From: Mycetocola zhadangensis
GTDB taxonomy: Bacteria > Actinomycetota > Actinomycetes > Actinomycetales > Microbacteriaceae
Direction of reading: 5' to 3'
Length of the DNA: 64,000 nucleotides
Assembly: GCF_003668565.1 (NCBI RefSeq)
Contig: NZ_RCWJ01000005.1
Location: forward strand, 1-64,000
How positions within the stretch are numbered: the first letter of the stretch is position 1; every line of letters starts with the position of its first letter. Below, one piece after another: positions 1,300 through 15,178 of this stretch. The notes under the pieces were generated by a model. It was not told the origin of the DNA and made no database searches. It saw nothing but the letters and a program-made list of their open reading frames with translations. Position numbers and translations under genes: made by a program.

Positions 1300-2655
1300 T
1301 CAGTTCGGGGTAGTGGACTGTGAGCGCGAGGTCTCTTCCGCGCTGCCTGTCGGTGCGACTGACGGGCGTTCGATCGGTACTGCGTTCTGGTCACCGGGAG
1401 AGGGGTTCTTGCGGTTGCGCCTCAGAAGTCCGCGAAGCGTCGGCCTGCCCTGCCGCTTGCTGTAGACATCGATGCCAACGGCGAGAAGCAAAACGAGGCC
1501 CTTGATGATCTGCACCCTGTCGACTCCGACGCCGAGCAGCTGCAGGCCGTTGTTCAGCACGGCGATCACGAGGCCTCCGACGATCGACCCGACGATGGTT
1601 CCAATTCCACCCGAAACCGCAGCGCCACCGATGAAGACAGCGGCAATCGCATCCAGTTCCCAACCGACACCGTCTCCAGGACCGGATGCCACGGACCTCG
1701 CGACCGCGATCATTCCGGCCAGTGAAGCGAGGACCGACATGTTCATCATGACGAAGAAGTTGATCCGCTTGGTCTTCACACCGGAAAGTTCGGCCGCGTG
1801 CCAGTTGCCGCCGACCGCGTAGATGTGCCTGCCGAAGGTGGTGTTGCGCGTGACGAACGAGTACACCAGTACGAGCACCCCGAGGATGATGCCTGAGACG
1901 GGGAAGCTTGTGCCGATGCGACCTCCGGCGAACAGCAGCGTGGCGTAGACGACGATGCCGAGAAGGATGACGATCTTGACGATGCTTACCCAGAGTGGAG
2001 CTTTTTCGGACCCCATCCGGGTCTGGGTGCGCCGAACGCGAATCTCCTGAATCACAATGACAACGGCGACGGCCAGCCCCAACAGCAGGGTCGGGTTGCT
2101 GTAACCGATGTCCGGGCCGAAATCCGGAAGGAAGCCTCCGCCGATGATGGTGAAGGCGTCGGGAACGGGAACCGTCGCCGAGTTGCCGATGAACTGGTTT
2201 CCGCCGCGGAAGATGAGCATTCCGGCGAGGGTCACGATGAAGGCGGGAACTCCGACGTATGCGACCCACCAGCCCTGCCAGGCACCGATCAGCGCCCCGA
2301 TGACCAGCCCGAGAAGAATGGCGAGCGGCCAGGGCAAATTCCAGCTATTCATCGACGTCGCCACGATGATGCCGGTGAACGCTGCAACCGATCCGACGGA
2401 CAGGTCGATGTGTCCGGCGATGATCACCATGACCATGCCGATGGCGAGGATCAGGACGTATGCGTTTTGGTTGACCAGGTTGATCAGGTTGGTGGGGTCG
2501 AGGGTCAAACCCCCGGTCGCGATCTGAAAAATGACGACGATGACGACGAGCGCACCGAGGATGCCGACCTGCCGGCCGCTCGACTGTCCGCCGCCAAACA
2601 TTTTGCCGAGTTCCCGAAGGCCACCCGACCGCTTCTGCTGGGTTGTCGTGCTCAT
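1300..2655 (-). CDS. Sugar ABC transporter permease (CUT2, MmsB/GguB-like)
   Basis: This is a polytopic inner-membrane permease, 451 residues, of the CUT2 (ribose/xylose/ChvE) class. About ten hydrophobic segments are visible, including the early [15 protein letters not shown]-like stretch followed by [16 protein letters not shown], the hallmark of BPD_transp_2 permeases, and a late [17 protein letters not shown] loop. An N-terminal cytoplasmic region of about 30 residues and a hydrophilic, Pro/Ser-rich C-terminal tail of about 45 residues frame the membrane part. Its start overlaps the upstream ATPase stop by 4 bases, so the two are translationally coupled. It should form the pore with the neighbouring ATPase. 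Confidence 0.88.
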
Positions 2656-4196
2656 CGACTCACTGCCCTCTTTGACGTCATGTTCTTCATCAGGGTTTCC
2701 GGGTCCGCCTCTGCACTCGGCAGGTCGGCGGTGATGGTGCCTTCGAAGATCGTGTAGATCCGATCCGAAACACCAAGGAGCTCAGGCAGTTCAGATGAAA
2801 TCATGATGATTCCTTTGCCCTGCGCCGCGAGATCACGAATGATGCCGTAGATCTCGGTTTTGGCACCGACGTCGATGCCTCTGGTCGGTTCGTCGAGGAT
2901 GAGCAGGTCAGGATCGGTGAACATCCACTTGGCTAAAACCACTTTCTGCTGGTTGCCGCCTGACAGCTTGTTCACGCCTTCGTCCACGGTCGGCGTCTTG
3001 ATCCGCAGGCTCGTGCGGAACCGCTCAGCAACCGTGTGTTCAGCGACCTTGTCGACGACGGAGCCCTTCGAGATTTTCGACAGTTTGGCCGAGACGATCG
3101 AGCGTTTGATGTCATCGAGCAGATTGAGCCCGAGCGATTTGCGGTCCTCGCTGACATAGGCGATCCCGTGATCGATGGCCTCGCTCACGTTTCGAAGCTG
3201 GATCTCCTTGCCGTCCTTGAACACGCGGCCGGAAAGGTAGGTTCCGTATGACCGGCCGAAGATACTCATCGCCAACTCGGTGCGTCCGGCTCCCATCAGC
3301 CCGGCGAAACCGACAACCTCACCGCGGCGAACCGTGAAACTCGAGTTCTTCACCACCAGACGCTCGGTCGTCAACGGATGCTGCACCGTCCAGTTGCGGA
3401 CCTCGAAGAACACCTCGCCGACCGTCGATTCGTGCTCGGGGAAGCGGTTCTCCAGCACCCGGCCAACCATGCCCTGAATGATCCGGTCTTCGTTGACGCC
3501 GTTCGCCACCACGTCGATCGTCTCGATGGTCTTGCCGTCACGGATGATCGTGATCGAATCAGCAACCGCTTCGATTTCGTTGAGTTTGTGCGAAATCATG
3601 ATCGAGCTGACGCCCTTGCCTTTGAGCCCGCGAATGAGGTCGAGCAGGTGCTGCGAATCGGCTTCGTTCAGCGCGGCAGTCGGCTCATCGAGAATGAGGA
3701 GCTTGACCGACTTGTTGAGCGCCTTGGCGATCTCAACGAGCTGCTGTTTGCCGACGCCGATGTTCTTGATCTGAGTGTCGGGGTCATCGGACAGGCCCAC
3801 CCTGGCGAGCAGCCCGATCGCTTCGGTCTTGGCAACTTGCCAGTCGATGATCCCGCCGCGACCCGGCTCGTTGCCGAGGAAGATGTTCTCGGTGATCGAC
3901 AGTTCGGGAATCAGCGCGAGTTCCTGATGGATGATCACGATGCCGGCGTGCTCACTCGAGCGAATGTCCTTGAACCTCATCTCCTGGCCCTGGTAGATGA
4001 TGTCGCCCGAGTAAGTTCCGTACGGATACACACCGGACAGCACCTTCATGAGCGTCGACTTCCCCGCACCGTTTTCACCGCAGATGGCGTGGATTTCGCC
4101 GGCCTTCACCTCGATCGAGACTTCGGAGAGCGCCTTCACTCCCGGAAATTCCTTGGTGATCGACCTCATTTCGAGGATCGTTGGATTCGCCGTCAC
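2652..4196 (-). CDS. Sugar ABC transporter ATP-binding protein (CUT2, duplicated NBDs)
   Basis: The protein energises CUT2 sugar import. It carries two nucleotide-binding domains. The first has Walker [10 protein letters not shown], a degenerate signature [14 protein letters not shown] and Walker [12 protein letters not shown]. The second has the usual divergent P-loop [11 protein letters not shown], then [14 protein letters not shown] and [13 protein letters not shown] chose a GTG start ([12 protein letters not shown]) because AAGGGAG precedes it and the paralogue at 11117-12646 begins at the same place; an open frame continues upstream to 4349 but without homologous sequence. It is the first gene of the downstream sugar operon. 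Confidence 0.88.
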
Positions 4197-4351
4197 CGAA
4201 CACTCCCTTGTGTTGCCGACATTCGCCGGTCGTTCGGGGCCAGCGGTTGTGCTCGGATACCCCGCGTTCTCGCGGAATCTGAGACGCCACCGTATGACTC
4301 GACTCTGAGTAAACGACATCTGGCGAGCGCCGTCAACGCTTCGACACAATT

Positions 4352-4470: not shown

Positions 4471-5988
4471 TTAGAACCCCTGGGCCAGGCGGTAGTACGC
4501 GTTGTTCCAGCGCGCTTCGCGAGCGAAACCATCGAGGGTGGTGTCGTTGTCGATGACGAGGAGCTCGGTGCCCGCGATCTCCGCAAAGTCGCGGAACACG
4601 TCGATGCCGACCGCGTTTGTCATCACCGTGTGGTGCGCGGCCCCAGCGGTGAGCCAGGCGGCAGCCGAGGTGGCGAACGACGGCTGCGGCTTCCAGACCG
4701 CACGGCCGACCGGAAGGTTGGGCAGTGCTTCAGCTGGCTCGATCACATCGACGACGTTCGCGACCAGACGGAAGCGGTCGCGCATGTCACTCATGGCCAC
4801 GACGACGGCCGGGCCGGCGTCAGCGGTGAAGACCAGGCGAACCGGGTCTTCCTTGCCTCCGATGCCGAGCGGGTGGATCTCGAGCGTCGGCTTGGCCGAT
4901 GTCAGGCCTGGGCTGACCTCGAGCATGTGCGCTCCAAGGATTTGCTCCTCACCGGGAATGAGGTGGTAGGTGTAGTCCTCCATGAGCGAAGCACCACCGG
5001 GCAGGCCGGCACCCATAACCGATGCGGCTCGAACCAGGATGGCGGTCTTCCAGTCACCCTCAGCTCCGAAGCCGTACCCATCGGCCATCAGCCGTTGGAC
5101 GGCGAGCCCAGGCAGCTGCTTGAGTGCACCGAGGTCTTCGAACGAGGTGGTAAATGCGCCGAAGCCGCCCTCTTCGAGGAACGACCGCAGTCCGATTTCG
5201 ATCGCGGCGCCGTCGCGCAGGGACGAGTGGCGGTCGCCACCATTGCGAAGTTCGGGCGCTACGTCGTACAGCTCTTCGTACTCAGCCACGAGCGAATCGA
5301 TGTCGGTCTCGGAAGCTGCAGCGACAGCATCCGCCAGTTCATTCACTCCCCAGGTGTTGACCTGAACACCGAACCGCAGTTCAGCCTCAGTTTTGTCACC
5401 CTCGGTGACCGCGACGTACCGCATGTTGTCACCGAAGCGCGCGAGTTTGAGCTCGTGTGTAGCGGCCCAGCCGGCCGCCGCGCGCATCCAGGTGCCGACC
5501 TGCGCCGTGACGGCCGGGTTCGAGACGTGGCCGACGACGGTTTTGCGTGAGACGCCGAGGCGGGTCTGGATGTAACCGAACTCACGGTCGCCGTGGGCGG
5601 CCTGGTTGAGGTTCATGAAGTCCATGTCGATGCTCGACCAGGGCAGTTCAACGTTCGCCTGGGTGTGCAGGTGCAGCAGCGGCTTGCGCAGTGCGTCGAG
5701 GCCGGCAATCCACATTTTGGCCGGCGAGAACGTGTGCATCCAGGCGATGAGGCCAATGACACGGTCGTCGGCGTTGGCGTCGAGCGCCGCACGACGAATC
5801 GACTCGGAATCCTTGAGTACCGGCTTCCAGACGATCTTGACCGGAACATCGGATGCTGCGCCGAGCGCACGCGCGATTTCCTGCGACTGGTCGGCGACCT
5901 GCTTCAGCGTCTGGTCACCGTAGAGGTTCTGGCTTCCGGTGAGGAACCAGACTTCGTACGAGTCGAGCGATGTTGAGAGTTTAGGCAT
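4471..5988 (-). CDS. araA: L-arabinose isomerase
   Basis: This cytoplasmic enzyme converts L-arabinose to L-ribulose, the first step of arabinose use. The protein is 505 residues, normal for the family. The diagnostic N-terminus [13 protein letters not shown] is present, followed by HTFSPAKMW(I) and the mid-protein [17 protein letters not shown] with metal-site residues. The start [14 protein letters not shown] was chosen because AAGGAG lies just upstream and the family begins here; the open frame runs further to 6198 without homology. Its start overlaps the araD stop by 8 bases, so translation is probably coupled. It is the last gene of the araB-araD-araA order and is followed by a strong hairpin. 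Confidence 0.96.
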
Positions 5989-6715
5989 GAGGGTCTCCTT
6001 GAGAGTCGGCGAGGGCGCCCTGCGGCGCCTGTCCGTAGACGTTCTGGTAGCGGTCGAACAGGGAATCGATGGCGGGCTGCGGAATCGGAACAGGAGCGCC
6101 GAGTTGACGGGAAATGTGCACGGTGCGTGCAACATCCTCAACCATGACGGCGGCCTTGACGGCGTCTTTCGCGTCCTTTCCGATGGTGAACGGTCCATGG
6201 TTGGCCATCAGGACGGCTCGGCTGCGGTGACCGCGAAGTGTCTCGACGATGCCGCGACCGATCGAGTCGTCTCCGATGATGGCGAACGGTCCGACCGGGA
6301 TCTCGTCCCCGAACTCGTCTGCCATGGCCGTGATCACACATGGGATGGGCTCGTTGCGGGCTGCCCACGCCACCGCGTAGGTGGAGTGGGTGTGCACCAC
6401 GCCGCCAACCTCCGGCATATTCCGGTAGACGTATGCGTGCGCCGCTGTATCGCTCGACGGGGATCGATCGGAACCCGGGGTGCCGGGAATGACGTTCCCG
6501 TCAAGGTCGCACAGAATCATGTTCTCGGGAGCGAGGTCGTCGTAGCTCACGCCGGAGGGTTTGATCACGAAGAGATCCGCTCCTGGGACGCGGCCGGAGA
6601 CGTTGCCCCCCGTCCAGACGACGAGGCCATAACGCACGAGTTCACCGTGCAGTCGAGCGACATCAGAGCGGACCCGCGCGATGGCGACTTCGGTTTCGGG
6701 AGCAAAGGTACTCAC
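5981..6715 (-). CDS. araD: L-ribulose-5-phosphate 4-epimerase
   Basis: This class II aldolase/epimerase converts L-ribulose 5-phosphate to D-xylulose 5-phosphate, feeding the pentose phosphate pathway. The 244-residue protein has the N-terminal [15 protein letters not shown] phosphate-binding region, the zinc-site pair in [13 protein letters not shown] and a third histidine in [10 protein letters not shown], in the expected order. It overlaps araB by 4 bases and araA by 8 bases, so the three genes are one tightly coupled operon. Confidence 0.95.
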
Positions 6716-8385
6716 GCGAGGGCCTCTCTCTTCAACTGGCGCAACCGGTGCATCACGTCGTTGCCACCTCGACCGAAGTAGTCATGCAGTTCGCGGTATT
6801 CGGCGAACAGCCTGTCGTATGCCTCAGCGGCTTTCTCGTCAGGGGTGAACACATTTTTGTGAAGTTTGCCCATGACCTCCCCTGCCGCCCGAACGTCCGC
6901 GTATGCACCGGCGGCAACGGCCGCGTGGATGGCGGAGCCGAGTGCGGGCCCCTGGTCGCTTGCGATGGTGGAGATCGGCATTCGCAGAATGTTGGAGTAG
7001 GTCTGCATCAGGAACGGGTTCTTCTGCAGGCCACCGGCAACGATGAACTCGGTGACGGGAACGCCCGAGGCGTTGAACGTCTCGACGATGACACGGGTTC
7101 CGAAGGCTGTGGCCTCAAAGAGCGCCCGGTAGACCTCTTCGGTTCGGGTGGTGAGGGTTGTGCCGACGACAACACCTGACAGTTCGTGGTCGACGAGCAC
7201 CGAGCGGTTACCGGAGTGCCAGTCGAGCGCGACGAGGCCGTGCCCGCCGACCGGCTGATCCTGGATCAGGCTCGTCAGGTACTGGTGAATGCTGAGGTCG
7301 GCCTCTTCGGCGGCCTCGTAATACCCCGAAGGCACCTGATTCTGAACGTACCAGGCGAAAATATCGCCAACCCCGGACTGTCCTGCTTCGTACCCATACA
7401 GCCCGGCGACGATTCCGCCGTCGACGACGCCGCACATTCCTGGCACCTCAACGAGTTGGTCGCTGTTCATCACGTGGCAGGTGGAGGTGCCCATGATGGC
7501 CACCATCTGGCCCGGCTGCACGGCGCGGGCGGCCGGAGCTGCCACGTGTGCGTCGACGTTGCCAACGGCGACGGCGATGCCCTCGCGAAGCCCTGTCCAT
7601 TCGGCGGCCTGGGCTGAGAGTCGGCCTGCCGCGTCTCCGAGCTGGCCAATCCGGTGCTCAACCTTGGTCTCGACAAAGTCGGCGAAGTCGGGGTTGAGCA
7701 GAGCGAGGTAGTCCCGACTCGGGTACTGGCCGTCCTGGTAGATGCCCTTGTATCCGGCCGTGCACGCGTTGCGCACGTACTCTCCGGTGAGCTGCCACAC
7801 GATCCAGTCGGCGGCTTCGACCCAGTGATCCATCTTCTGGTACAGCTCGGGGTCCTCTTCGAGCAGCTGCAGTCCCTTGGCGAATTCCCATTCGCTCGAG
7901 ATCAGCCCACCGTAGCGGGGCAGCCAGCTTTCTCCCCGGGATGCCGCCAGCTCGGTGATGCGGTCCGCCTGCGCCTGTGCGGCGTGGTGCTTCCACAGCT
8001 TCACATAGGCGTGCGGACGGTCCGCGTATTCGGGCAGCTCATTGAGCGGCGTGCCGTCAGCGAGAGTGGGAACCATTGTGCAAGCGGTGAAGTCGGTGCC
8101 GATGCCAATCACGGCTGCGGGGTCGATGCCGGCGATCTTCACGGCCTCGGGCACGGCGGACTTGAGCACATCGACGTAGTCCTGCGGAACCTGAAGAGCC
8201 CAGTCCGGCGGCAGGCGCTTACCCGTTGCGGCCAGTGTGGTGTCCATGACCGCGTGCGGGTACTCGAGGACAGCGCTGCCGAGCTCGGCACCGTCGGAAA
8301 CGCGCACCACAACAGCCCGACCGGAGAGGGTGCCGTAGTCAACTCCGATGACGTAGCTCTCCTGTGTTTCTGATTTCTCGGTCAC
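6712..8385 (-). CDS. araB: Ribulokinase
   Basis: This FGGY-family sugar kinase phosphorylates L-ribulose with ATP. The 557-residue protein begins with VIGVDYGTLSGRAVVV, the family's phosphate-binding motif, and contains IGIGTDFTACTM, VGNVDAHVAAPA and the C-terminal ATP-site segment EFIVAGGLQKNPFLMQ. These features and the length match the ribulokinase branch rather than glycerol or xylulose kinases. It lies 64 bases after the degenerate ABC gene and overlaps araD by the ATGA stop/start. Confidence 0.95.
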   Translation of the reverse strand: MTEKSETQESYVIGVDYGTLSGRAVVVRVSDGAELGSAVLEYPHAVMDTTLAATGKRLPPDWALQVPQDYVDVLKSAVPEAVKIAGIDPAAVIGIGTDFTACTMVPTLADGTPLNELPEYADRPHAYVKLWKHHAAQAQADRITELAASRGESWLPRYGGLISSEWEFAKGLQLLEEDPELYQKMDHWVEAADWIVWQLTGEYVRNACTAGYKGIYQDGQYPSRDYLALLNPDFADFVETKVEHRIGQLGDAAGRLSAQAAEWTGLREGIAVAVGNVDAHVAAPAARAVQPGQMVAIMGTSTCHVMNSDQLVEVPGMCGVVDGGIVAGLYGYEAGQSGVGDIFAWYVQNQVPSGYYEAAEEADLSIHQYLTSLIQDQPVGGHGLVALDWHSGNRSVLVDHELSGVVVGTTLTTRTEEVYRALFEATAFGTRVIVETFNASGVPVTEFIVAGGLQKNPFLMQTYSNILRMPISTIASDQGPALGSAIHAAVAAGAYADVRAAGEVMGKLHKNVFTPDEKAAEAYDRLFAEYRELHDYFGRGGNDVMHRLRQLKREALA

Positions 8386-8449
8386 AGTGCCGACTCCTTT
8401 GTTCTGCGTGTACCCCGGGAAGGGCTCGACTGTACTGTCATGGTTGTTC

Positions 8450-9775
8450 TCAATTCTCAGATTGTGGATAAGTGCGGAGGCGGTACGCTGCGAGGCCTAA
8501 AGCAGACACATTCCCCCCGCGAAGTTCAGTCGAAATGCGGGTGCCGGCCTGCAGCAGGATCCGGTCGCTCAGGTCGATCAGCTGCATGGCATCCGCCGCC
8601 TCGAGGAGAACGGCGATTCCGACGTCTGCCAGGCCCTCGATCAGGGTTCGCCGTTCAGTCACCTCGGTCGGCGACAGCCCGGAGAACGGTTCGGTGAGGA
8701 TAGCGACGCGCGGCGGCTGCGCGGCCCAACCGGCGAGAACCTCGTTCATATCTGACGTTGAAGGCCGGGACGGCGCTCCGGGGATCACCTCGAGGAGCAT
8801 TGACGGCGCCCGACGCGGAACGTATTCACGACGCCTGTCGATGATTCCCAGTCGTGCGAGCCGGGCGAGGGACGTTCCTGAAACACTCGTCGGAACTCCG
8901 CCGATGATGCCGACGTCATACGTGGGCGGATGCTCGGAAATGAAGAGCACTCGAGCGGCGATCGCGCGCTCAACCGTGGACAGGTCCACCGGGTTGCCGT
9001 CCACAAACATCGTTCCCGTCACCGCCCCACCGGTGGAGGCACCGAAGATCCCGAGGGCCAGGTCCTGCGCTCCCCCGAGCCCGATGATCTCTCCGGCCCG
9101 AACGGTCAGGGATGCGTTCTCAACCCTGACCCGTTCGCGATGAACGGGATCGCACACCGTCACGTTCTGCAGTTCGAGGACGATCGGCCCGAGCACGCGG
9201 ACCGGCCGCTCGGCGGACGCGGCATTCCCGACGAGGGATTTTGCGAGCTGCGCTGCGCCGTCTGGTTCAGCCCAGTCGACCAGATCCCCATTTCGAACCA
9301 CGGCGACGAGGTCGAACGCCCTCACCCCGAAGTGCAGGTCGGGTAGAGAATCGACGGCCACGAAAACCCTGGTCGTTCTCGCCGCGTGAGCGAGAACCTC
9401 GAGCCACCGACGGTGTTCATCCACAGTGAACCGTGACTGACGATCATCGATCAGAACGTGCTCGGGCGAACGCGCGAGCGCTCGAGCCAGTTCAACCGCG
9501 CGGCGCTCAACAGGGTCCAGGTCAATTGCCGCGCTGCTCGGAGCCAGGGACAACCCAACCCTCGCGAGCAGTTCGGCCGCCCGACGGTCGAGCGTTGCCT
9601 TCCGGAGAAAAAATCCGCCGGACGACTCCGTGCCGAGGAGGACATTGTCTCCGACGCTCTGGAACGGGAGGATCAGCGATTCGACGCCGACAGCAGGAGC
9701 ACCTGCCCTCTCGGGCAGCCCGCCGAGCACGGCGATCAACCGTGCGCCGTCCGGCATGTCCCCGCCCAGTGGCAT
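8450..9775 (-). CDS. Degenerate CUT2 ABC-ATPase-like protein lacking Walker A and signature motifs
   Basis: The open frame is uninterrupted (441 residues) and lines up with the double-NBD ATPase at 11117-12646, but almost every catalytic motif is gone. It starts near the Q-loop region of NBD1, so the first ~90 residues including the P-loop are missing. The first Walker B is HVLIDDRQS instead of LLILDEPTA. In the second half the P-loop position reads IGLGGAQDLA, the LSGGNQQ signature is replaced by STSDMNEV, and Walker B is RVAILTEPFSG. The ATG at 9775 follows a GGGAGAGAG purine run; 9757 is an alternative start. It sits between the permease and araB in the same operon. It may be a pseudoenzyme with a sensory or structural role, or a gene still decaying without frameshift. 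Confidence 0.75.
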   Translation of the reverse strand: MPLGGDMPDGARLIAVLGGLPERAGAPAVGVESLILPFQSVGDNVLLGTESSGGFFLRKATLDRRAAELLARVGLSLAPSSAAIDLDPVERRAVELARALARSPEHVLIDDRQSRFTVDEHRRWLEVLAHAARTTRVFVAVDSLPDLHFGVRAFDLVAVVRNGDLVDWAEPDGAAQLAKSLVGNAASAERPVRVLGPIVLELQNVTVCDPVHRERVRVENASLTVRAGEIIGLGGAQDLALGIFGASTGGAVTGTMFVDGNPVDLSTVERAIAARVLFISEHPPTYDVGIIGGVPTSVSGTSLARLARLGIIDRRREYVPRRAPSMLLEVIPGAPSRPSTSDMNEVLAGWAAQPPRVAILTEPFSGLSPTEVTERRTLIEGLADVGIAVLLEAADAMQLIDLSDRILLQAGTRISTELRGGNVSALGLAAYRLRTYPQSEN

Positions 9776-9843
9776 CCGCTTCTCTCTCCCAAGGACAAGG
9801 TCCCGGCCGCCAACGCTTCACGCGGGCGACCGGAACCCACCGC

Positions 9844-11085
9844 CTACTTGCCGCCTGAGCGACGCTTGTTGAAAACGTCGAAGGCGACCGCGAGCAACAG
9901 CACGAGGCCCTTGACGGCCTGCTGCCACTCGATGCCGAGGCCGAGGATCGACATTCCGTTGTTGAGGACACCGATGATCAGACCACCGATGATGGCGCCA
10001 CCGATGGTTCCGACTCCACCCTGCACAGCTGCTCCACCGATGAACGCTGCGGAGATGGCCTCGAGCTCGAATCCGTCACCTGCCTTCGGACCGGCGAGGT
10101 TGAGGCGAGCCGTGAAGATGAGGCCGGCGAGGGCCGCGAGGACACCCATGTTCACGAACAGCAGGAAGTCGGTCTTGCGGGTCTTGATGCCTGAAAGCTC
10201 GGCAGCGTGACGGTTGCCACCGATCGCGTAGACGTGGCGACCGAAGACACTGCGGTTCATGATGATGCCGTAGATCAGGACCAGCACAGCCAGCACGATC
10301 AGCGTCACAGGGATGCCCTTGTACGAGGCAAGAGCGTATGCGAAGAAGCCGATGGCCAGCGTGATGAGGACGAGCTTGGCGACGAACCAGACGATCGGCT
10401 CGACGTCCTGGCCGTACTTCTGTCGGCCGGCACGGGTGCGGAACTGCCCAACGATGAGGGCGACGACAGCGGCGGCGGCCACGATCAGGGTGAGTGGGTC
10501 GAGGTCGAGGTCACCGAAGACGTTGTTGAGGAAGCCGTTTCCGAGGGCACGGTATTCGGTCGGGAATGAACCGATGTTGGCGTTTCCGAGAACGACGAGG
10601 GCGAGACCGCGGAAGATCAACATGCCGGCGAGGGTCACGATGAACGCCGGTATGCCGACGTAGGCGATCCAGAAGCCCTGCCACATTCCGACCAGCGCGC
10701 CAATCGCGAGCGACATGATGATGGAGAGCCACCATGGCAGACCCCAGGTCACGGCGAACACACCGGAACATGCACCGACGAATGCGGCGACAGATCCGAC
10801 CGAGAGGTCGATGTGGCCCGCGATGATGATCATCACCATGCCGATCGCCAGAACGAGGATGTACCCGTTCTGGACGATGAGGTTGGAGATGTTCTGCGGG
10901 CGCAGGAGGATGCCGTCCGTCACGACAGCGAAGAACAGGATCACCGCGAGCAGCGCGAGGAAGATTCCGTTCTTGCCGAGGTCGGCGAGCAGGTGGCTGA
11001 GCCAGCTGGTGAATTTGTTTTCAGGGGGATTGATTCGTCCGCCGGCGGCGATTTCCTCGGCCGCCGGGGTCTGGGTGCTTGACAT
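9844..11085 (-). CDS. Sugar ABC transporter permease (CUT2, MmsB/GguB-like)
   Basis: This is the membrane pore of the first sugar importer of the ara operon, 413 residues. It has about ten transmembrane segments, the CUT2 hallmark [16 protein letters not shown], and the conserved AAVQGGVGTIGGAIIGG loop before the last helices. It is clearly paralogous to the permease at 1300-2655 but has a shorter C-terminal tail. It begins 31 bases after the ATPase stop and is preceded by a good ribosome site (AAGGAG). Confidence 0.9.
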   Translation of the reverse strand: MSSTQTPAAEEIAAGGRINPPENKFTSWLSHLLADLGKNGIFLALLAVILFFAVVTDGILLRPQNISNLIVQNGYILVLAIGMVMIIIAGHIDLSVGSVAAFVGACSGVFAVTWGLPWWLSIIMSLAIGALVGMWQGFWIAYVGIPAFIVTLAGMLIFRGLALVVLGNANIGSFPTEYRALGNGFLNNVFGDLDLDPLTLIVAAAAVVALIVGQFRTRAGRQKYGQDVEPIVWFVAKLVLITLAIGFFAYALASYKGIPVTLIVLAVLVLIYGIIMNRSVFGRHVYAIGGNRHAAELSGIKTRKTDFLLFVNMGVLAALAGLIFTARLNLAGPKAGDGFELEAISAAFIGGAAVQGGVGTIGGAIIGGLIIGVLNNGMSILGLGIEWQQAVKGLVLLLAVAFDVFNKRRSGGK

Positions 11086-11116: not shown

Positions 11117-12646
11117 CTAGCGCGGCTTTTCCATGGTCATGAGCTTGAGAAGGGATTCCGGGTTTGCTTCCTCGATCGGAAGTTGCCCAGTGATGCGCCC
11201 CTCGCTGAGGGCGTAGATGCGGTCGCAGATGCCGAGGAGTTCCGGCAGCTCGCTCGAGATGACGATGATGCCCTTGCCCTGGGCGGCCAAATCGTTGATG
11301 ATCGCGTAGATCTCGTACTTGGCTCCGACGTCGATTCCGCGGGTCGGCTCATCGAGAATGAGCACGTCCGGGTCAGCGTAGATCCACTTGGACAGCACAA
11401 CCTTCTGCTGGTTTCCGCCTGACAGTTTGCTCGTTTTGGCCAGCACGGTCGGAGCCTTGATGTTCATGCTCTTCCGGTAGTCGTTCGCTACCTTGTATTC
11501 CTCGTTGTCGTTGACGAGGCCATTCGACGACAGCTTGTCGAGGGATGCGAGGGCGATATTGCGCTTGATGTCCTCGAGCAGGTTGAGTCCGTAGTGCTTA
11601 CGGTCCTCCGTGGCGTAGGCCAGTCCGGCGCCGATCGCTTCCGAAACGGTGCGGGTGCGGATCTCTTTCCCACGCATGAAGGCCTTGCCGGAGATCTTGC
11701 TTCCGTAGCTGTGACCGAAGAGACTCATCGCAAACTCGGTTCGTCCAGCACCCATCAGTCCAGCGATCCCGACAATCTCACCGGCGCGAACGTCGATGTT
11801 GACGTTGTCGACCATCACCCGAGTTGGATCCTGCGGGTGATGCGCTGTCCAGTCTTCGACCCGGAAGATCTCCTCGCCGATGTTCGGAGTGTGGTCCGGG
11901 TACCGGTGCTCGAGGTCACGGCCGACCATGTCCTTGATGATGCGCTCTTCGGTGACATCCGTCTTCTGGATGGTCTCGATCGTCTGGCCATCGCGAATCA
12001 CCGTTACGGTGTCTGCAACCTTTTTGATCTCGTTGAGCTTGTGGCTGATGATGATCGACGTGATGCCCTGCTCCTTGAGGTGCAGGATCAGGTCGAGCAG
12101 GTGATCCGAGTCCTCATCGTTGAGGGCGGCGGTCGGCTCATCGAGAATGAGGAGCTTCACCCGCTTGGAGAGGGCCTTGGCGATCTCGACGAGCTGCTGC
12201 TTGCCGACACCGATGTCCAGGATTTTCGTCGTGGGGTTTTCCTTGAGGCCGACGCGCGCGAGCAGCTTCGCTGCCTCGTGATTGGTCTTGTTCCAGTCGA
12301 TCAGGCCAAGAGCGCCGGTCTGCTCGTTGTTGAGAAAGATGTTCTCGGCGATCGAGAGGTACGGGCTGAGCGCCAGCTCCTGGTGGATGATGACGATGCC
12401 CTTGGCCTCGGAGTCGCGAATGTCCTTGAATTCAACGACCTCGTCCTCGAAGACGATGTCACCCGTGTACGTTCCGTGCGGGTATACCCCGGAGAGGACC
12501 TTCATCAGGGTGGATTTGCCCGCCCCATTTTCGCCGCAGATGGCGTGGACCGTGCCGCGCCCTACGTCGAGTGTGACATCCGACAACGCTTTCACGCCGG
12601 GGAATGTCTTGGTGATGCTGCGCATCTCAAGGATGTTTGTGGTCAC
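11117..12646 (-). CDS. Sugar ABC transporter ATP-binding protein (CUT2, GguA/XylG-like)
   Basis: This 509-residue duplicated ATPase drives import through the permease at 9844-11085. NBD1 has Walker [10 protein letters not shown] (about residues 38-46), signature-like [14 protein letters not shown] and Walker [15 protein letters not shown]2 has the non-canonical P-loop [11 protein letters not shown], then [15 protein letters not shown] and [12 protein letters not shown]. The start [17 protein letters not shown] matches the family. It follows the binding-protein gene after a hairpin-containing 98-base gap. Confidence 0.93.
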
Positions 12647-12744: not shown

Positions 12745-13857
12745 TTAGCCGATCTCTTCCGCGGTCCAGTAACCGGAGTCAACCAGAACCTCGTTGACGT
12801 TGTCCTTGACAACGATCTGCGAGTCGAGGAGGTAGGACGGCACAACGAACTTGCCGTTGTCGTAGTCCTCGGTGTTGTTGACCTCAGGCTCTTCGTCGTT
12901 CAGGACAGCAACGGTCATCTCAACGGCAGCGGTTGCAAGCTTGCGCGTGTCCTTGAAGATGGTCGCGAACTGCTCGCCCGAGTTGATGGCCTTGACCGAG
13001 TCAAGCTCAGCGTCCTGGCCAGAGATGAACGGCCATTCTTCACCGGTGGTGTAGCCGGCGTCGGTCAGAGCCGAGATGATTCCACGTGAGATGCCGTCGT
13101 ACGGCGAGAGGATTCCGTTGACCTTGGTGCCGTCGGAGTAGCTCGAGGTGAGGATGTTCTCCATACGCTTCTGCGCGGTTTCGCCGTCCCAGCGGAGGGT
13201 GGCGGCCTGCTCGAAGTCGGTCTGGCCGCTCTTGACGACGAGCGTGCCTGCGTCGATGAACGGCTTCAGGGTGTCCTGAGCGCCCTCCCAGAAGAACGTG
13301 GCGTTGTTGTCGTCGGGCGAGCCGGCGAACATTTCGATGTTGAACGGCCCAGCGGGTGCGCCATCGACGGCCTTGCCCTCGAGGTCTACGAGGCCGAGTC
13401 CGTTGAGGACCGAGTTGGCCTGCTGCACGCCGACCTTGTAGTTGTCGAACGAGGCGTAGTAGCTGACGTTCTCGGTGTCACGGATGAGGCGGTCGTATGC
13501 GATGACCGGGATCTCAGCGTCAGCAGCGTCCTGGAGGACCTGCGTCAGTGTGGTTCCGTCGATCGACGCGATGATCAGGGCCTCTGCGCCCTTGGTGATC
13601 ATGTTCTCGATCTGTGAAACCTGGGTGGGGATGTCGTCTTCTGCATACTGCAGGTCAACCTTGAAGCCCTCAGCTTCGAGCTGTTCCTTAACGGCGTCGC
13701 CGTCCTGGATCCAGCGTTCGCTCGACTTGGTCGGCATAGCGACGCCGACGAGAGCGCCTCCGCCTTCACCTTCGCCTTCCGCGCCGCCCGATGAGCACGC
13801 TGCGAGCGAAACGACCATTGCGCCGGCCGCGAGTGTTGCGATCAGTACTTTCTTCAC
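12745..13857 (-). CDS. Sugar-binding lipoprotein (CUT2, ChvE-like), arabinose operon
   Basis: This is the substrate-binding protein of the importer encoded by the next two genes. I chose the GTG start ([12 protein letters not shown]) because AGAGAGG precedes it and it gives a clean lipoprotein signal peptide with lipobox LAAC about residue 20; the open frame extends to 13965 through the untranslated leader. The mature protein shows [26 protein letters not shown] and [12 protein letters not shown], all matching ChvE-type proteins. It heads the operon with araBDA, so L-arabinose is the likely ligand, though this is inferred from context only. Confidence 0.9.
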
Positions 13858-14016
13858 TGTGTTTACCTCTCTGTAATCGGTGCCATGGACGTCTTTGTCG
13901 CCTGGTGACCCAGACAGGATGGTGTTCCGCGCGAGCAGGCTGCGTCCATGAAGGCAAGCTCTCATCGATTGAAGATCGATGCGCGGGTGACCGTGAAAGT
14001 AGTAATGGTTCTCTGT

Positions 14017-14158: not shown

Positions 14159-15178
14159 TCAAAACGACGGCACCCCGGTCGACGAGCGAACAATCAGTTC
14201 CGGGTGGATCCGACCCGTGTAGCCGACAGGTGAGCCGTTGATCTCGCCAAGCAACTGAGCGACGCAGCGGCGACCAAGCTCGGGGAAGTCCTGGCGCACC
14301 GTCGTGAGAGGCGGCCAGAAGTGCGCCGCCTCGGGGATATCGTCGAACCCCACGATCGAGACGTCCCGGGGAACATCGTGGCCGGAATCACGGATCGCGT
14401 GGATAAGGCCGAGAGCCATTTGGTCATTGGAGGAGAAGATCGCGGTGAAGTCGCGCACACGCATGAGCTCCCGGCCGGCGTGGTAGCCGAACTCGGCTGA
14501 CCAGTCTCCGAGGATGGGCGCTGTCGTACGCACGTCCTGAGCATTCATCTCGTCGAGGAAGCCACGCATGCGCGCCTCGGCCTCCATCCAGTCCTGTGGC
14601 CCAGCCAGATGGTAAATGTGCTTGTGCCCAAGCTCAATGAGATGCCGGGTGGCCAGCCGGGCACCAGCAACCTGGTCGACAGCGATCGCGTGGTCGTCCG
14701 CGACCTCGTTGGTGTTCATGGTGACGAACGGCACCCGCAAATCGATGTTCGACAGCGCCCGAAATACCCGCACCTGTGGCGCGATGATGACAAGGCCGTC
14801 AATCGCCTGCGCGGTGAGGTGGTCGAGCGCCGCGACGATTGAGGCCTCATCGGTCGCAGTGATGTTGGCCGTTGACACCATGTAGCCGGCATCCTGTGCT
14901 GCGGTTTCGATGCTCTGGATGATGCTCGACGGCCCGTACTGCGATCGCTGCGAGGCCAGCACCCCGAGCGTTCGGGATCGATGGGTCACGAGTGCGCGGG
15001 CGGCCCGGTTGGGCCGATACTGCAGCTCGGCCATGACGTCGAGGACGCGCTGCTTCGTCGAGTCACGGATGCTCGGGTGGTCATTGAGCACCCTGGAGAC
15101 GGTTTGGTGACTGACCCCGGCAAGCCGCGCGACATCGCGGATGTTCGGCGCTCGGCCTCTGTCGTCGCTGTCTGCCAC
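14159..15178 (-). CDS. LacI-family transcriptional regulator (probable arabinose repressor)
   Basis: A 339-residue LacI/GalR protein. The N-terminal helix-turn-helix reads NIRDVARLAGVSHQTVSRVLND with a hinge helix near residues 55-65 (RAARALVTHRS). The rest is a periplasmic-binding-protein-like effector domain, ending with the GFDDIPEAAHFWPPLTTVRQ segment typical of the family. It is transcribed toward the ara operon, and palindromes of the TGTGA-N4-TCACA type lie both downstream (operon promoter) and upstream (15197-15212). It therefore probably represses the operon and itself, with an aldopentose as inducer. No AraC-type activator is present in the window. Confidence 0.88.
   Translation of the reverse strand: MADSDDRGRAPNIRDVARLAGVSHQTVSRVLNDHPSIRDSTKQRVLDVMAELQYRPNRAARALVTHRSRTLGVLASQRSQYGPSSIIQSIETAAQDAGYMVSTANITATDEASIVAALDHLTAQAIDGLVIIAPQVRVFRALSNIDLRVPFVTMNTNEVADDHAIAVDQVAGARLATRHLIELGHKHIYHLAGPQDWMEAEARMRGFLDEMNAQDVRTTAPILGDWSAEFGYHAGRELMRVRDFTAIFSSNDQMALGLIHAIRDSGHDVPRDVSIVGFDDIPEAAHFWPPLTTVRQDFPELGRRCVAQLLGEINGSPVGYTGRIHPELIVRSSTGVPSF

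Follow-up and report, generated by a model that had tools for sequence, protein, structure and literature searches.

A conserved pseudo-ATPase encoded behind the GguB permease gene in Microbacteriaceae, a possible accessory of a multiple-sugar importer

Degenerate nucleotide-binding sites inside the motors of ABC transporters are known and have been reviewed (PMC7756269), and pseudoenzymes often regulate their active relatives. Such sites have lost catalytic residues while retaining the fold of the nucleotide-binding domain (NBD), and they make up one of the two sites of a working motor. Regulation of an ABC transporter by a cytoplasmic protein that is not an ATPase is represented by MlaB, the STAS component of MlaFEDB (PMC7367683).

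Here, we describe a gene for a degenerate double-NBD ABC protein, hereafter the companion, in the window, i.e., the whole stretch of 64,000 nt of Mycetocola zhadangensis DNA that was analyzed. The companion resembles the fused ATPases of the GguA/XylG/RbsA type (CUT2) in its two-NBD layout, its match to the GguA profile and its location beside the GguB permease, but differs from them in lacking the Walker A Lys, the Q-loop Gln and the signatures, in its low profile score (136 versus 810 bits) and, in the window genus, in missing the first ~85 residues. Like degenerate ABC sites, it has lost catalytic residues and retained the NBD fold; however, in the reviewed cases (PMC7756269) one of two sites within a working motor is affected, whereas the companion is a whole extra protein, encoded next to an intact motor, in which both are lost. 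We liken its proposed role to that of MlaB (PMC7367683), although MlaB is not an ABC protein, whereas the companion is related to the motor, but dead. In our assessment, the chances are about even that the companion is a conserved pseudo-ATPase of the GguA/XylG/RbsA kind retained in the role of an accessory to the GguAB-ChvE multiple-sugar importer. Among the matches listed and in the open-licence literature, we found neither a report of a separate whole-protein pseudo-ATPase beside an intact motor nor a description of a dead relative of an ABC motor serving as an importer brake. The occurrence of such a separate protein beside importer genes in several genera makes the question of whether a dead ABC motor can regulate an importer directly testable.

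The companion gene and its product

The companion is encoded in an operon with the order chvE-gguA-gguB-companion-araB-araD-araA, all on the minus strand (Table 1), with 68 nt between gguB and the companion and 64 nt between the companion and araB. The names of the transporter components and ara enzymes follow NCBIfam matches above curated cut-offs, and the araA start, at about position 5988, was inferred from relatives, the mechanical open reading frame (ORF) extending to 6198. With GguB as its permease, the transporter belongs to the ChvE-GguAB multiple-monosaccharide type and is not a classic AraFGH system. The companion ORF starts with ATG and contains a single stop codon, at its end, leaving 441 codons intact; a putative Shine-Dalgarno-like sequence, GGGAGAGAG, can be read immediately 5' of the start. 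A consensus scan of positions 8300-9950 yielded no sigma-70-like promoter and no minus-strand terminator-like site, which is weakly consistent with one operon. ORFs on the opposite (plus) strand over the companion (8472-9143 and others) look like mechanical shadows, and the codon-position GC content of the sense frame (0.73/0.50/0.73) argues weakly against them.

Table 1. Features of the companion locus in window coordinates
Feature	Coordinates	Strand	Evidence
araA, L-arabinose isomerase	4471..5988	-	NF002795, 794.3 bits, cut-off 622
araD-like L-ribulose-5-phosphate 4-epimerase	5981..6715	-	NF005123, 374.6 bits, cut-off 251
araB, ribulokinase	6712..8385	-	TIGR01234, 789.2 bits, cut-off 583.25
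Companion (pseudo-ATPase, degenerate double-NBD ABC protein, 441 aa)	8450..9775	-	ORF, alignment, tree
Companion residues 266-325, lowest pN/pS within genus (0.20), containing GG motif	8801..8980	-	alignment, pN/pS
Retained NBD1 stretch LPFQSVGDNVLLGTE (N..LG.E)	9626..9670	-	family alignment
Shine-Dalgarno-like sequence GGGAGAGAGAAGCGG	9776..9790	-	immediately 5' of companion ATG; read by eye
gguB, multiple-monosaccharide permease	9844..11085	-	NF040906, 543.6 bits, cut-off 450
gguA, intact double-NBD ATPase	11117..12646	-	NF040905, 872.5 bits, cut-off 810
chvE, sugar-binding protein	12745..13965	-	NF040907, 525.8 bits, cut-off 460
LacI-family regulator, upstream of operon	14159..15178	-	domain/profile matches

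The best NCBIfam profile for the companion is that of GguA (NF040905), matched at 136 bits against a cut-off of 810 over profile positions 86-491 of 500. Because the alignment begins only at position 86, the companion has no counterpart of the first ~85 residues, among them Walker A. Like GguA, it is encoded with GguB and ChvE (gene order), and it does not have the two complete NBDs of GguA, its NBD1 lacking the N-terminal part; the score against Pfam ABC_tran (PF00005), 15.8 bits, lies below the gathering score of 25. In the alignment with the GguA of the window, the NBD1 signature DIGVGKQQ is replaced by DLDPVERR and the NBD1 Walker B LLILDEPT by HVLIDDRQ, with the Asp kept and the Glu changed to Asp. 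The Walker-A-like stretch of NBD2 has shrunk to G-----AQDL, EDRK has become EHPP, the NBD2 signature LSGGNQQK reads RPSTSDMN, and the NBD2 Walker B VLILDEPT reads VAILTEPF, with the Asp changed to Thr and the Glu kept. Hence, none of the hallmarks of a functional ABC ATPase (Walker A Lys, LSGGQ-type signature, Walker B Asp together with the catalytic Glu) is found in the companion. Part of the NBD2 loss is ancestral, since the second Walker A of GguA-type ATPases is itself non-canonical (GAGRTE); a non-canonical or degenerate second ATP site is also noted for Bacillus subtilis RbsA and NupO (PMC11466899). Judging from its residues, the companion would no longer be capable of normal ATP binding or hydrolysis. 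The initial annotation, which described an intact 441-codon frame without the NBD1 Walker A, with both signatures replaced and both Walker B motifs altered, located between the permease gene and araB, was accurate in each of these respects, as judged by the ORF, the alignment to GguA and the gene order.

The structure of the companion was modelled with AF2 from an alignment of 18 rows (8 companions and 10 intact ATPases), resulting in an ABC-type model with a mean pLDDT of 80.2 and a pTM of 0.79. The best chains retrieved with Foldseek were the fused two-NBD chains of Mycobacterium tuberculosis DppD and OppD (8wd9_D and 8j5q_D; E ~1e-13), which we take to be the ATPase chains of DppABCD and OppABCD. 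They belong to peptide importers, are 19 and 18% identical to the companion, respectively, and match the whole chain loosely (TM-score 0.41-0.42, rmsd 12.7-13.9). Residues 197-433 align with LptB (6mbn_A; Z 18.4, rmsd 4.0, 187 aligned residues), the N-terminal half being barely covered. Thus, the predicted fold is that of an ABC-type NBD, judging from the match of the C-terminal half to LptB and from the two-NBD chains found with Foldseek.

Distribution and neighbouring genes

Companions were found in the window genome and in all 5 other genomes analyzed from its genus (g1), with best matches of 58-72% identity in the latter. Five of these 6 frames are unbroken, a single TAG in the G003 copy being its own stop codon; the sixth (G004) is split by contig ends and is included in neither the loci nor the family members counted below. 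Of 85 gguB loci fetched from Microbacteriaceae, 39, belonging to 7 genera, have a related frame immediately downstream of gguB; counting the window, these are 40 of 86. This proportion is not a frequency, since the sample was enriched for companion-bearing genera: the second 40 loci came mostly from these, and 5 more were chosen for having a companion, whereas the first batch of 40 gguB regions, from 21 genera, included 10 with and 30 without it. Eighty of the 85 loci were drawn from, and are a subset of, the listed gguB matches with at least 74% identity. By genus, the companion is present in 4/4 loci of g1, 1/1 of g2, 10/10 of g7, 8/8 of g11, 2/2 of g43, 7/7 of Plantibacter (g50) and 7/8 of g77; none was found directly after gguB in the 16 other genera examined, most with 1-4 genomes. 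In four genomes (G170, G125, G184 and G144), the profile matches are separated from the upstream gguB by more than 1 kb; position and score mark them as ordinary ATPases of other gene groups, and these loci were counted as lacking the companion. The companion starts 18-127 nt after the gguB stop codon according to a simple start rule, with which the g77 starts are doubtful. Orthologues thus occupy the same locus in the genus and follow gguB in six further genera, rather than being absent from it, as they would be had the outcome that the initial annotation named against its own proposal come about.

The positions of the ara genes are variable. Among the first-batch loci, araD-araA lie upstream of chvE in g43 (2/2) and in one of two g7 loci, an araD-like gene alone is found there in the other g7 locus and in 3/3 g11 loci, and the stretch contains no ara gene in 2/2 g77 loci; downstream of the companion, no ara gene was seen in the g7, g11, g43 and g77 loci of this batch. 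There is also no araB between the companion and araD in G001, G004 and G006. Because the ara genes vary in position or are absent across genera, the constant neighbour of the companion is gguB rather than araB, and the functional tie to araB or araBDA suggested at the outset is not supported. In G002, an FGGY-family kinase gene, unmatched to the window AraB in the locus scan, lies between the companion and araD (L057:8138-9805), and G001 and G004 have no kinase gene there.

In an even sample of the order, 13 of 396 genomes carried close gguB orthologues (E <= 1e-165), none of them outside Microbacteriaceae. When a profile of 29 members was compared with 384 genomes of the class, companions could not be separated by score from intact GguA-type ATPases; among the 20 loci inspected, one was the window gene and 19 had Walker A and LSGGNQQK. 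Accordingly, no companion outside Microbacteriaceae was found among the checked loci of this search, the score of which does not discriminate. An HMM of the conserved block was rejected as a detector: RbsA-like ATPases scored up to 59.1 bits versus 69.9 bits for the weakest companion, and leave-one-genus-out scores overlapped.

The family considered here comprises 43 members, 40 directly after gguB (including that of the window) and 3 beside lacI. The latter, from genomes G151, G201 and G089 of the sister genus g2, are located directly behind lacI, without chvE, gguAB or araBDA beside them, and the end of lacI overlaps the companion start by 1-4 nt (TGATG or GTGA). In these genomes, araA is present elsewhere and the best gguB match, also elsewhere, is a paralogue of 55-56% identity, while the congener G006 has a close gguB with the companion behind it. 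The lacI-companion pairs (L059:9267-11557, L060:8971-11270 and L062:9388-11693) precede genes of another sugar ABC transporter, consisting of a binding protein, a two-NBD ATPase and two permeases.

These loci raise the main alternative, in which the companion would be a partner of the local LacI-family repressor and report to it the state of the transporter or a ligand, a logic comparable to the MalK-MalT link. The overlapping genes, the 63-64% identity of the adjoining LacI proteins to the LacI of the window and the retention of the companion without a close gguB orthologue are consistent with this alternative. However, 40 of the 43 members directly follow gguB, Pfam recognizes no DNA-binding domain in the window companion, and LacI has a sugar-binding-type domain of its own, so that we consider such a sensor unlikely. 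Moreover, because the companion also adjoins a sugar ABC transporter in g2, the role of a transporter accessory can be entertained in this genus as well.

Erosion, retention and selection

Retention of residues was counted over the 43 members in GguA numbering, smaller denominators giving the members in which the residue is aligned. Of the Walker A residues, K44 is found in 0/39 and T46 in 0/42 members, and the Q-loop Q89 in 0/42. Q150 and Q151 of the NBD1 signature persist in 2/43 each, whereas R349, G353 and N363, as well as N412, Q414 and K415 of the NBD2 signature, are each present in 0/43. Walker B is partly retained (D169 in 34/43, E170 in 28/43, D432 in 15/43 and E433 in 27/43), and N102, G320, G376, P434 and G457 are found in all 43 members, E108 in 42. 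All 24 GguA and 10 GguA2 proteins (the latter from a second GguA-like group) that were compared retain GENGAGKST and LSGGNQQK. The GguA profile was matched by 29/29 members scanned at E <= 1e-10, and PF00005 by 20/29 at E <= 0.01 (best 1.4e-24). The extent of erosion differs between genera: most g7 members have a recognizable Walker A frame (GENLSGAS) and an LDEPF-like Walker B, those of Plantibacter have a full-length NBD1 with GTVHAVLGPVSTLRHL opposite a 16-residue stretch of GguA, and in g1 and g2 the N-terminal part of NBD1 is gone. The family thus provides a natural series, from motif remnants in g7 through full-length eroded proteins in Plantibacter to N-terminally truncated ones in Mycetocola/Okibacterium.

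Positions invariant in GguA and GguA2 are kept by the companions at 8-52% in the nucleotide motifs (8% and 12% in the signatures), at 52% in an NBD1 stretch, at 34% in its NBD2 counterpart and at 36% elsewhere. In window numbering, the NBD1 stretch LPFQSVGDNVLLGTE includes N44 and G48, found in 43/43 members, and E50, found in 42. By analogy with other ABC NBDs, we take it to be the region where a coupling helix is expected to dock; the NBD1 and NBD2 stretches are tentatively assigned to the permease docking groove by comparison with other ABC structures. Because retention is 52% and 34% in these stretches versus 36% at other positions, the evidence for a surface facing the permease is moderate. 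A GG motif occupies companion residues 292-293, at the same place in 43/43 members; its counterpart is ED or DD in GguA and GD or GS in the GguA2 group, so that the first G alone is common to companions and GguA2.

In a tree of 95 sequences, one branch sets off all 43 companions and another the 24 GguA proteins (SH-aLRT 100 each); the point of attachment is unsure owing to long branches, which the program flagged as joined, and the midpoint root was used for drawing only. The BLAST score is higher to GguA2 than to GguA for 40 of 43 companions, by 3-35 bits, and the other 3 favour GguA. In addition, the stretch after the GG motif, LARLGIIDRRREY in the companion, resembles LARLGVIDKHREY of GguA2. 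By these small margins, the sequences suggest descent from the GguA2 group; tandem duplication of the neighbouring gguA is disfavoured by the separate clade and the better scores to GguA2. Companion distances correlate with those of GguB (Mantel rho 0.57, 0/999 permutations as high; only 0.30 between genera), and in one genome of g11 (G250) both the companion and GguB group with g7. Together, the correlation and this grouping point to joint inheritance or joint transfer.

Across 23 companion pairs representing 7 genera, dN/dS calculated by the Nei-Gojobori method lies at 0.16-0.45, with dS ~1 or more, near saturation, for the pairs of g1 and g2. Comparing the window with G003 gives 0.18 for the companion, as against 0.03 for gguA, gguB and araB, 0.05 for araD, 0.04 for lacI and 0.12 for an MFS gene. 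Bootstrapped 95% intervals lie below 1 in 7/7 pairs, one from each of the 7 genera, with upper limits of 0.22-0.60. Within the genus, pN/pS is highest at residues 81-195 (0.53) and lowest around the GG motif (Table 1). Between the window and G003, identity is 72% for the companion, 96% for gguA and 98% for gguB; since identities within the genus reach 92-98% for gguA and gguB, the companion evolves much faster. The companion is under purifying but relaxed selection, clearly weaker than that on gguA and gguB. One of the 43 frames is broken (G225, Plantibacter), members being defined as stop-to-stop frames of at least 150 aa, a definition that may overlook frameshifts near the termini. In neutral simulations without indels, 22%, 5.8%, 2.4% and 1.2% of frames remained stop-free at 0.1, 0.2, 0.3 and 0.4 substitutions per site, respectively. 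In G225 (L131), the apparent frameshift is near the C-terminus, where tblastn yields two pieces in different frames. In G368, the companion is absent from the locus, although its GguB groups with g7, in which 10/10 loci have it.

Slow decay of a GguA-like paralogue, under relaxed selection and kept mainly because frameshifts with polar effects on the operon would be costly, is an explanation that fits the companion's fast divergence relative to gguA and gguB, the loss of its N-terminal part in g1 and g2, and the two exceptions noted above, the seemingly shifted frame of G225 and the empty locus of G368. We nonetheless regard it as quite improbable given the bootstrapped dN/dS values, the 42 of 43 members without a visible frame break (breaks near the ends could be missed), the universal GG motif and the presence of the companion in the three g2 genomes that lack the close gguB of their congener G006. 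Furthermore, mechanical ORF calls show no recognized same-strand gene after the companion in the g7, g11 and g77 loci of the first batch, which makes polarity a weak explanation in these genera. The companion, therefore, shows neither the neutral dN/dS nor the frame breaks of a pseudogene: instead of values near 1 and frequent frameshifts, named beforehand as evidence against the proposal, the analysis found 0.16-0.45 and one apparent frameshift in 43. The claim that selection keeps a full-length protein that is not an ATPase is likewise supported by dN/dS and by the orthologues at the same locus.

A possible accessory of the importer

The reading of the companion as an importer accessory, which is the most economical one, draws on its location directly after gguB in 40/43 members, their grouping in one clade, the almost always unbroken frames, the uniform loss of motifs, purifying selection, the predicted ABC fold and the correlation of companion and GguB distances; motif loss and selection also support the non-ATPase role initially suggested. 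Because the ATP-related parts have been lost and yet the gene has been kept, the companion probably acts by aiding or curbing the importer, not by supplying its power, and in g1 and g2 it cannot simply replace GguA, since its NBD1 half lacks the N-terminal part. Conversely, the three g2 members occur without a close gguB orthologue, many such importers have no companion (30 of 40 loci in the genus-spread first batch), the argument from the docking surface is moderate, selection is weaker than on the importer genes, one frame is apparently shifted (G225) and one locus lacks the gene (G368). Also against it are the loose whole-chain match to DppD, the barely covered N-terminal half and the 10 intact ATPases in the 18-row alignment from which the model was built.

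If the companion is an accessory, it would contact the GguAB-ChvE importer, most likely by docking on the GguB permease through the NBD surfaces that it retains, and, once docked, could modulate transport by the real ATPase through braking or stabilizing. The more specific proposal that the dead double-NBD protein docks on GguB, competing or acting with GguA, as a regulatory subunit that brakes uptake is tentative, and we would put the chances well against it. That the companion is instead an assembly factor, chaperone or allosteric partner pairing with GguA rather than with the permease appears very unlikely: that NBDs naturally associate with each other, that an NBD-type fold is predicted and that the gene lies in the same row as gguA speak for it, but CUT2-type ATPases hold both NBDs in one chain, so that no free partner site is expected, and the motifs of the NBD-NBD interface (Walker A and signature) are among those lost.

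Two further observations concern the transporter genes. In the N-terminal tail of GguB (window 9844-11085), AAG at residues 13-15 is found in 39/40 loci with the companion and in 7/46 without it, genus g45 being the main exception. Because the independent changes are too few (only 2 independent well-supported pairs on the tree, median p 0.5), this correlation is a hint rather than a result as regards the tail as a docking site. Finally, a second intact double-NBD ATPase, ~65% identical to the GguA of the window, is encoded downstream of araA at 2652-4349, beside a permease-like gene at 1300-2655.
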